A stretch of DNA of 64,000 nt from Cypionkella sp. (lineage in GTDB: Bacteria > Pseudomonadota > Alphaproteobacteria > Rhodobacterales > Rhodobacteraceae), in the NCBI RefSeq assembly GCF_030652235.1, contig NZ_JAUSBA010000022.1, positions 1 to 64,000 of the forward strand, written 5' to 3'. The notes beneath the pieces were generated by a model, which saw only the letters and a program-made list of their open reading frames with translations, did no database searches and was not told where the DNA came from. Positions 1-1,328 of the stretch are shown here, in pieces (within the stretch, counting starts at the first letter, position 1; each line of letters begins with the position of its first letter). The position numbers were made by a program, and so were the translations under genes.

Positions 1-114
1 AAAGGACGCGTTACTCATGCCGTGCGCGCGGCACAACTCGGCCACCGGCATCCCGCCTTCAGCCTGACGCAGGATCGCGAGGATCTGCGCCTCAGTGTAT
101 CTGCTTGTCTTCAT
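1..114 (-). CDS. IS3-family transposase OrfA, N-terminal part (runs off the window)
   Basis: Only the first 38 codons lie in the window. They read as the helix-turn-helix start of an IS3-family OrfA: MKTSRYTEAQILAIL, then RQAEGGMPVAELCRAHGM, which is the Sin/IS407-type DNA-binding fold. The start is the ATG at 114, with AGGAG seven bases upstream on the minus strand. No stop or frameshift is seen in this short piece, so this element may be intact beyond position 1. It points away from the other two IS remnants and seems to be the youngest insertion, because it truncates the neighbouring OrfB remnant at about 195. Confidence 0.8.
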   Translation of the reverse strand, partial: MKTSRYTEAQILAILRQAEGGMPVAELCRAHGMSNASF

Positions 115-185
115 TCGGAATCTCCTCATGCATCTTGCCGAGAAAATTCTACTTATGCAGCCCCTTACTTTCGGGGGGGATTACC
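1..185 (-). mobile_element. IS3-family element, 5' end only
   Basis: OrfA starts at 114, and the element's 5' terminus must lie between there and about 195, where sequence of another transposase begins. A C-rich stretch at 163-180 (minus strand CCCCCCCGAAAGTAAGGGGC) is a plausible terminal region, but the exact inverted repeat cannot be set because the other end is outside the window. Confidence 0.5.
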
Positions 186-219
186 GGATAACAAGAGCTT
201 GGTCCATCACTCTGACCGC

Positions 220-258
220 CCCTCTCACGGTTTGAAGGCAAACCGTTGCCGGGCAACG
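220..258 (+). repeat. 39-bp palindromic insertion in transposase remnant A
   Basis: Thirteen extra codons lie between R and G of the HHSDRGSQY motif. The insert holds two overlapping perfect palindromes: CGGTTTG-AAGG-CAAACCG (228-245) and CCGTTGCC-G-GGCAACGG (243-259). Aligned without gaps to the reverse complement of the 732-770 insert, 23 of 39 positions match, including the 10-mer TTGAAGGCAA at the same offset (13-22). The insert length is inferred from the known family motif; the palindromes are read directly. Confidence 0.75.
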
Positions 259-459
259 GGATCACAATACCTGTCGATCAAGTATACCGAGCGTCTGGCC
301 GAGGCAGAAATCGACCTTTCAGTCGGCACCGTCGGTGACGCCTATGACAACGCCTTGGCCGAATGCGTCATCGGTATCTTCAGAACTGAGGTCATCAACC
401 AGATCGGCCCCTGGAAATCAACGCGCGAAGTCGAATGGGAGACCCTCAAATGGGTCGAT

Positions 460-489
460 TAAGCCGTTTCCTAGAAAACGGCTCTGTAT
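460..489 (+). repeat. Hairpin insertion in transposase remnant A (about 24 bp net)
   Basis: Between WVD and NNRRLLGPIG, where the family has two residues (usually WF or WY), there are 30 bases. They contain the perfect stem AGCCGTTT-CCTAGA-AAACGGCT (462-483). The net gain is about 24 bp, and it introduces TAA at 460-462. The loop starts CCT, like the CCTT loop of the 732-770 insert, but the stem sequence differs. Confidence 0.6.
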
Positions 490-631
490 AACAACCGCCG
501 ACTTCTTGGCCCCATCGGATACATCCCGCCCGCAGAAGCAGAGGAGGCGTTCTATGCAAACCTGAACTCAATCGATATGGTCGCTTAGTCGTTGAACAAA
601 CCACCCTCCGGCAAACCCGGGTCGGTTCATA

Positions 632-1238
632 ACTGCTGGGCGGACTGCGGATCGACAGGCCCAACCAGGTCTGGTGTGCCGACATCACTTACCTGCCGAT
701 GCGGAAAGGCTTCCTCTATCTGGTGGCCATCCTTAGGCCGGTAGGCGATTGCCTTCAATCGCCGTAAGACATGGACTGGTTCACCCGCAAGGTGCTGGCC
801 TGACGCATCTCCAACACGCTGGAGGCCGAGTTCTGCCTCGAGGCGCTGAACGAGGCGATCCACAAGTTCGGCCCGCCCGAGATCATGAACACCGACCAGG
901 GCAGTCAGTTCACTTCCTTCGACTGGACCGACCGGCTGAAGCGGGCCAAGACCAAGATCTCCATGGACTGCAAAGCCCGATACCTCGACAACCCTCGGGT
1001 ATTCACTCGGACCAATGGCGATCATGCCCTCGACATGTCACGTCTCTGGCGGTCGCTGAAGTATGAATGCGTCTACCTGCGCGTCTGGGAAACCGGGTCA
1101 CAGGCCAAGGCCGGCGTCGGGCGCTGGATCACCTTCTACAACCACTTGCGGCCCCACGCTGCCCATGGCGGACAACCACCCGCCGTGGGCAACTTCAACA
1201 ACATCGAAACCGATCAGCAGGTGCAGGCAGTAGCTTAA
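632..1238 (+). pseudogene. IS3-family transposase OrfB remnant B (rve core, interrupted)
   Basis: The fragment starts inside the protein and runs through RPNQVWCADITYLPM, FLYLVAI, MDWFTRKVLA, TLEAEFCLEALNEAIHKFG, MNTDQGSQFTSFDWTDRL, RLWRSLKYECVYL and RWITFYNHLRPHAAHGGQPP to TAA at 1236. The three acidic residues of the DDE core lie in ADITYLP, MNTDQGSQF and the displaced E region. Defects are a 39-bp insertion at 732-770 with an in-frame TAA, a second in-frame TGA at 801 (VLA*RISN, where the family has W), and an aberrant stretch at 990-1037 replacing the conserved IFVE before RLWRSLK. It is a non-functional relic. Confidence 0.85.
732..770 (+). repeat. 39-bp palindromic insertion in transposase remnant B
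   Basis: The family reads LVAIMDWFTRK; here 39 bp separate ATC (I) from ATG (M). The insert contains the perfect 8-bp stem GGCGATTG-CCTT-CAATCGCC (744-763), flanked by a short outer repeat CTTA (732-735) and TAAG (765-768). It carries an in-frame TAA. It has the same length as the 220-258 insert and lies in opposite orientation, sharing TTGAAGGCAA at the identical offset. Confidence 0.75.
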
Positions 1239-1328
1239 ATCACCCGGAAATCTGTCCAAGAGTTGGGGAGTAGCTCAGTACAAACGACATTTTGTAATCC
1301 ATTAATTTCATTGACGTTAGAAAGCAAT

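Follow-up and report, generated by a model that had tools for sequence, protein, structure and literature searches.

A family of structure-defined miniature hairpin elements residing mostly in insertion sequences of Rhodobacteraceae

The window, the whole stretch of 64,000 nucleotides of Cypionkella sp. contig NZ_JAUSBA010000022.1 that was analysed, carries near its left end two remnants of IS3-type transposase genes, each interrupted by a short palindromic insert. The features are as follows.

1..459, plus strand: open frame with an IS3-type transposase remnant, host of copy A, interrupted at HHSDR^GSQY
220..258, plus strand: copy A, subfamily 1, net insert 39 nt
220-226, plus strand: arm CCCTCTC of copy A, read from the sequence
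227-234 with 239-246, plus strand: stem of copy A, with the loop AAGG at 235-238, read from the sequence
from 247, plus strand: 3' part of copy A, TGCCGGGCAACG; model base 40 is the G at 259
220..253, plus strand: whole fold of copy A, with outer helix 220-222 with 251-253, internal loop and inner stem
650..1238, plus strand: IS3-type transposase remnant, host of copy B, interrupted at VAI^MDWF; left edge approximate
732..770, minus strand: copy B, subfamily 2, net insert 39 nt
770-764, minus strand: arm GTCTTAC of copy B, read from the sequence
763-756 with 751-744, minus strand: stem of copy B, with the loop at 755-752
from 743, minus strand: 3' part of copy B, TACCGGCCTAAG; model base 40 at 731
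737..770, minus strand: whole fold of copy B, with outer helix 770-768 (GTC) with 739-737 (GGC), one pair being G-T; assigned from the sequence under the outer pairs that covary across the family

The original prediction described two 39-base inserts in opposite orientation, and both lie at 220-258 (+) and 732-770 (-). The decamer TTGAAGGCAA that they were said to share occurs at 232-241 (+) and 749-758 (-), a recount of the ungapped alignment again gave 23 of 39 agreeing positions, and in both copies a perfect hairpin with an 8-bp stem surrounds AAGG. In host A, transposase homology starts at about position 200 of the frame; rve_3 was matched with E 1.3e-4 and 22.1 bits, below the cut-off of 26.5 bits, and an annotated IS3 transposase matched by tblastn across the joined site with E 1.9e-9. 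Host B matched rve and rve_3 on 804-1220 of the window, and its tblastn match across the joined site had E 2.0e-24. The predicted empty sites were found in uninterrupted homologues of both hosts: for copy A, locus L162 reads CTGACCGA^GGATCACAA (86% over 118 nt, net 0), and for copy B, locus L227 reads CAGTCCAT^GACGGCGACC (89% over 151 nt, net 0). Both inserts represent a single element, defined by its structure. The decamer alone does not identify this element: 31 of the decamer's 34 exact occurrences in the genome lack the family hairpin, so the excess of 34 matches over 2 for a reversed control was discounted.

To search for further copies, we built a covariance model from 45 copies. Copies A and B scored E 3.5e-11 and 8.4e-5 in the 4.8-Mb genome, values that are not independent evidence because both were in the training set. 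When 150 of 4494 candidates in the window's genome were scored, 28 matches had an E of 10 or lower. We dropped four of these, a truncated half and three echoes on the reverse strand. The 24 copies kept as credible comprise 23 with E no higher than 0.026 and one, in an IS3-type gene, with E 2.1; 22 of the 24 are additional to A and B. Two further observations concern the window's contig outside the window: a copy at G000:C61:119296-119333 lies in an IS481/IS3-type gene (rve_3), and a subfamily 2 copy at G000:C61:120227-120266 lies in a host gene that matched no library. Elsewhere in this genome, L134 (G000:C39:344836-344870) is a truncated copy that retains the right half and the same IS3-type end as L051, its left half being replaced.

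The element recurs in other genomes of its bacterial family. With the copy-A pattern and up to 3 mismatches, matches occurred in 5 of 147 genomes (6 in the window's genome, 8 in G005, and a single copy apiece in G010, G036 and G053), and the reversed pattern gave 0 in every genome. In a collection of 84,980 species, each represented by one genome, the strict AAGG-loop pattern was absent, and the free-loop pattern was found in 30 stretches, every one from a record named Rhodobacteraceae bacterium or bearing one of the following genus names: Pseudorhodobacter, Cypionkella, Tabrizicola, Pseudotabrizicola, Gemmobacter, Rhodobacter, Jannaschia, Sagittula, Donghicola and Pseudooceanicola. With 22 candidates scored per genome, the covariance model at E 0.001 matched at least 68 of 295 genomes of the family Rhodobacteraceae, or at least 59 of 260 among good assemblies, and 2 of 190 genomes in a class-wide sample, namely the window's genome and G069, both Rhodobacteraceae. 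One stem type sought in viral contigs gave 0 matches; one consensus matched no phage and 4 of 72,556 plasmid records. In total, 281 matches in 186 loci, some of them overlapping, correspond to 243 distinct copies at 173 distinct sites, a set in which one palindrome of L185 appears twice, once for each strand (919 and 925). Thus, the search for relatives with compensated stems, suggested together with the original prediction, returned many of them in related genomes.

The family has one layout, in which a conserved 5' arm and a conserved 3' part enclose a hairpin that varies in sequence and stays self-complementary. Subfamily 1, to which copy A belongs, reads CCCTCTC-hairpin-TGCCGGGCARYG; subfamily 2, to which copy B belongs, reads GCCTTRC-hairpin-TACCGGCCRAYG, and intermediates between the two occur. 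The flanks of subfamily 2 recur in L120, L127, L174, L198, L199 and L206. In the inner stem, 98.3% of cells are paired and 6 of 8 pairs show double changes, a result reached by 0 of 500 shuffles. There is also an outer helix that was not built into the model, in which positions 1-3 pair with 32-34 (pairs 1-34, 2-33 and 3-32) in the versions CCC/GGG, GCC/GGC, CAC/GTG, CCT/AGG and CGC/GCG. In addition, pair 5-29 covaries as C-G or T-A. Among 122 distinct 40-mers, pairs 1-34, 2-33, 3-32 and 5-29 show 13, 5, 3 and 10 double changes, respectively, and each count was reached by 0 of 1000 shuffles; pairs 4-31, 5-30, 6-29 and 7-28 show zero. Kinship of the sequences makes such shuffle counts overstate the significance, and the variety of compensated pairs is the stronger point. 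Since both the outer and the inner pairs covary, bases 1-34 form one irregular hairpin followed by a 5-base tail. An alternative hairpin, 24-30 with 34-40, showed no excess over shuffles and was rejected. Open reading frames are in surplus (a mean of 4.82 of 6 frames open in the 122 distinct 40-mers versus 4.01 in pair-keeping shuffles), which we do not use as evidence because the flanks are shared by descent.

Two variants of the fold were seen. Copies of a class of about 42 nt keep an unpaired A after the third stem pair despite differing stems (GGC-A-GATTGC, GGG-A-CATTGC, GGG-A-TCATGC); they are L241:904-945, L243:902-943, L248:902-943, L250:902-943, L259:907-948, L260:901-942, L170:1162-1203 and L064:1729-1770. 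In the copies L061:114-153, L086:4354-4393 and L185:919-958, which read CCCTCTCGTGG...CCACGAGAGGG, the right arm is reverse-complementary to the left throughout (one base off in L086), and bases 1-34 make one continuous stem.

Among the loci analysed, an uninterrupted homologue spans the junction for 154 of the 243 copies. With the added length taken as the model length minus its last base, the best alignments were net 0 in 118, +1 in 16, -1 in 15, +2 in 2 and -4 in 3; the 36 that are not net 0 may reflect alignment noise or real variation. Net 0 in most alignments means that the element was added whole, with neither duplication nor loss of the target. At 72 distinct gap-free empty sites, the base after the junction is G in 55, followed by A in 41, T in 36 and G in 38, and the base before it is C in 38. 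The target is C^GATG-like, and the other strand reads CATC^element. Relative to the host gene, 61 of 103 sites have the element in the same and 42 in the opposite orientation, and the presence of both orientations indicates insertion at the DNA level.

To classify the host genes, we used tblastn with a library of transposases annotated in Rhodobacteraceae plasmids and of Pfam-supported fragments of the window's genome, extended in three rounds. Copies lying no more than 30 bp from a match (E 1e-5) were counted, which gave 182 of the 243 copies, 155 of them with one match across the junction. The library comes partly from the genome's own copies, whose own match is thus trivial, and those fragments carry Pfam support: 16 of 20 own-genome fragments match transposase-type domains (rve, rve_3, HTH_21, HTH_Tnp_1, DDE_Tnp, IS66, IstB), two of them, L053 and window 1-459, only below the curated cut-off. 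The remaining 61 copies were judged by eye: 40 appear to be in IS or IS-linked genes, 12 do not and 9 are undecided. An HMM scan of 28 different proteins (chosen from the by-eye set and a few own-genome cases) matched 19 to mobile-element families, some below cut-off (DDE_Tnp_1, Y2_Tnp, Mu-transpos_C_2, DEDD_Tnp_IS110, Transposase_mut, DDE_3, DUF772, DUF4096, HTH_Tnp_1, IS5 models and tyrosine recombinase), and 9 matched nothing. In the sample chosen by score only (L162-L261, 138 copies), 95 copies were assigned to IS by tblastn and 29 by eye, with 10 not in IS and 4 undecided. In the window's genome, 22 of 23 copies are in IS by tblastn, the copy at C61:120227 is undecided, and the 24th lies in an IS3-type gene by Pfam. 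As a control, the 31 remaining occurrences of the decamer in this genome were compared with the library at a looser limit of 1e-3, and 1 had a weak match (E 6.7e-4). A smaller first library placed just 110 of the 243 copies and was superseded; clustering of open reading frames was abandoned since the element's own translation blurred it.

One IS can hold several copies (five in L179, three in the IS66 of L055), and IstB helper genes, which are not transposases, also carry them. Several sites in IS3, IS5, IS6 and IS66-type genes directly precede a conserved Asp codon, which we take to be catalytic; this position follows from the C^GATG target. Non-IS copies L164:910, L187:902, L234:907, L261:909 and L157:1501 adjoin a GC-rich motif, GGGGGCGG...GGCGCTGCCCGGCGG, which looks like another intergenic repeat and of which L164 contains an uninterrupted copy. 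Non-IS copies L253:902 and L257:909 lie beside the repeat GCGCGGCGGGCTAAAGCCC or a similar one, with an empty repeat copy inside L257. In genome G179, L138:1501, L216:909, L219:902 and L249:903 are all followed by the stretch GAGTTTATTTnGCAAGA, not recognised as IS.

Entry into coding sequence in frame had been proposed as a rule, and this does not hold: net insert lengths range from 36 to 44, 39 being the commonest (142 of 243), and many copies shift the frame. In the transposase frame, copy B reads ...TCG CCG TAA GAC. A joined frame of at least 250 aa was found for 52 of 111 in-frame copies and 26 of 77 others, so intactness is not clearly higher in the former. Frame-breaking copies also occur in otherwise open genes (461 aa joined versus 370 with the insert in L248, 413 versus 308 in L072). 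On a Tabrizicola piscis plasmid, an annotated 525-aa IS66 TnpC is open throughout, with the element translated in frame.

The supposed tie to IS elements was borne out, both by the locations above and by units that recur with the element inside. Genome G259 has, at two places with different outer flanks, a unit of about 1.15 kb that contains the element and whose ends match in inverted orientation (GGCTCTGTTGC...); with a 301-bp probe the two copies are 100% identical, and other matches are partial at 80-85%. The longest frame of this unit has 205 aa, whether or not the element is included; the unit seems broken and was perhaps mobilised in trans. In G089, a unit that is IS3-type by eye, with up to five copies of the element, occurs at several loci and matches the Phaeobacter porticola plasmid pP97_b. 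IS units with frame-shifting copies recur within one genome. The recurrences in G259 and G089 show that IS units moved with the copies inside.

The element thus has the dispersed copies, self-complementarity and compensatory changes of a small palindromic repeat. Elements of the IS200/IS605 type have a hairpin, make no target duplication and use a fixed short target beside one end. The present element likewise inserts without duplication beside a short fixed target and probably works like single-strand elements derived from this group, but it has one hairpin only, and no linked tnpA or tnpB was found. Byps, the mobile translational bypassing elements of yeast mitochondria, are also short hairpin inserts in coding sequence, whereas the present element is bacterial, acts at the DNA level, occurs in both orientations and lies in IS genes. 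It resembles MITEs in being small, non-autonomous and dispersed, but makes no target duplication (net 0 in 118 of 154 alignments and ±1 in 31), as a MITE of a TSD-making DDE transposon would, and no long form with the same ends was seen in the window's genome.

According to PMC3733652, REPs are non-autonomous hairpins of 20-40 bp whose heterogeneous stems are kept complementary; they lie predominantly downstream of coding regions, and some are inside genes. Our element is similar to GTAG REP/RAYT systems as a small non-autonomous hairpin with varied but complementary stems. It differs in its location in IS genes, in carriers that mostly lack Y1_Tnp, and in its tag: its ends are CCCTCTC or GCCTTRC and CRYG, and the other strand begins CRYTG instead of with GTAG. 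PMC3733652 describes CGTC REPs, including some Rickettsia palindromic elements (RPE), as small palindromes that have no transposase dedicated to them, are most frequent in alpha-Proteobacteria and are sometimes intragenic. The element is likewise a small palindrome sometimes inside genes, but it lacks the CGTC tag as defined there, possesses an outer helix as well as an internal loop, and ends in a different tail. The original comparison with RPE therefore stands in kind, and fails in tag, outer structure and location. Rfam gave no family above its gathering score for window 100-1300 (best RF03094, 18.6 bits versus a cut-off of 94.9, E 0.89), and in the literature searched we recognised no paper describing this hairpin family. 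The element fails the tested defining features of GTAG REP/RAYT systems, of CGTC-REPs/RPEs and of TSD-making MITEs.

We looked for an enzyme of the RAYT/Y1 type. The window's genome has no Y1_Tnp gene above cut-off. At E 1e-5, Y1_Tnp was found in 26 of 295 Rhodobacteraceae genomes: in 10 of 68 carriers of the element versus 16 of 227 non-carriers, or, counted the other way, carriers make up 10 of the 26 genomes with Y1_Tnp versus 58 of the 269 without. This is a weak association and no requirement. None of 20 neighbourhoods of Y1 genes has a flanking pair of elements, and 2 have one element or a part of one (L281:884-925 in G160; L280:2-27, at a contig start, in G078). RAYT/Y1 was rejected as the mobiliser because 58 of 68 carrier genomes lack Y1_Tnp at E 1e-5 and flanking pairs are absent from the 20 neighbourhoods. 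HUH enzymes use a single-strand route, marked by a folded strand, no duplication and fixed bases beside one end; the traits of the element would fit such a route.

The reading that we prefer, with a probability of roughly 60%, is a non-autonomous hairpin mobile element that lives in insertion sequences and travels with them, owing its mobility to the IS ride and to a recombinase acting in trans. The element would be moved as a folded single strand by a candidate recombinase that reads the outer helix, the internal loop with its conserved letters and the variable inner hairpin, and joins the fold at a C^GATG-like target, so that on the other strand the element is immediately preceded by CATC. 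The surrounding IS would then carry it to new loci and hosts. Insertions in useful genes would be purged, which would leave those in IS to persist, and a real bias towards IS DNA could contribute to this persistence.

Survivorship alone could also produce such a distribution, if the element inserts anywhere and is kept only in neutral DNA such as IS genes and remnants, with neither IS preference nor hitchhiking. Many hosts are indeed degenerate IS remnants, both window hosts included, and 12 copies lie outside IS. However, intergenic DNA would be expected to offer a larger neutral target than IS DNA, copies in IS outnumber the clearly non-IS ones by 222 to 12, and IS units moved with copies inside, so we consider this explanation unlikely. 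That a host system silences IS by planting hairpins in their genes, the location being the function, would agree with the entry into several unrelated IS families, often more than once per IS, with the many broken hosts and with the sites before the Asp codon. It is improbable, as the target sequence explains the Asp sites, IstB helper genes are also entered, the intact Tabrizicola IS66 insert keeps the frame and no candidate system was seen. Fixed ends, a variable middle and precise insertion without duplication might also be expected of the footprint left by a larger element that targets IS genes and excises. This is very improbable: the right end TGCCGGGCARCGG occurs 18 times in the window's genome, each time in a hairpin copy, in the one truncated half or in unrelated sequence, and never in a long form; moreover, a scar of two fixed ends would not give compensated stem variation. 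Removal at the RNA or translation level by splicing or bypassing, which would keep the host IS active and account for frame-breaking copies in otherwise open genes (L248, L072) and for recurring IS units with frame-shifting copies, is scarcely credible when 42 of 103 sites are opposite to the gene and the G259 unit, possibly moved in trans, has the same longest frame either way.

The mobile element that rides in insertion sequences is thus the reading we retain. Precise insertion without target duplication occurred at many Rhodobacteraceae sites, mostly inside genes of several unrelated IS families. These structure-defined miniature elements form a real family that bears every mark of having been mobile. 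It is a variant of the REP/RPE kind, unusual in having other mobile elements as its home. Only tentatively do we go further and suggest that these may be hyper-miniature elements that specifically parasitise other mobile elements. Each would be a bare 34-nt fold with a 5-nt tail that rides on the IS as its vehicle, and an undescribed enzyme dedicated to it would place it in genes of about ten unrelated IS families.

Small inserts in transposases that lacked an explanation can be ascribed to this family; one such insert lies in an intact annotated gene. How small palindromic repeats spread is poorly understood, and they have been known chiefly as passengers of intergenic DNA or of host genes. 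Because the present family lies mostly inside IS genes and its empty sites are defined to a single base at about 170 distinct places, it offers a clean way of studying what moves such repeats, and allows one to ask whether they prefer moving DNA and whether they tame insertion sequences or exploit them.
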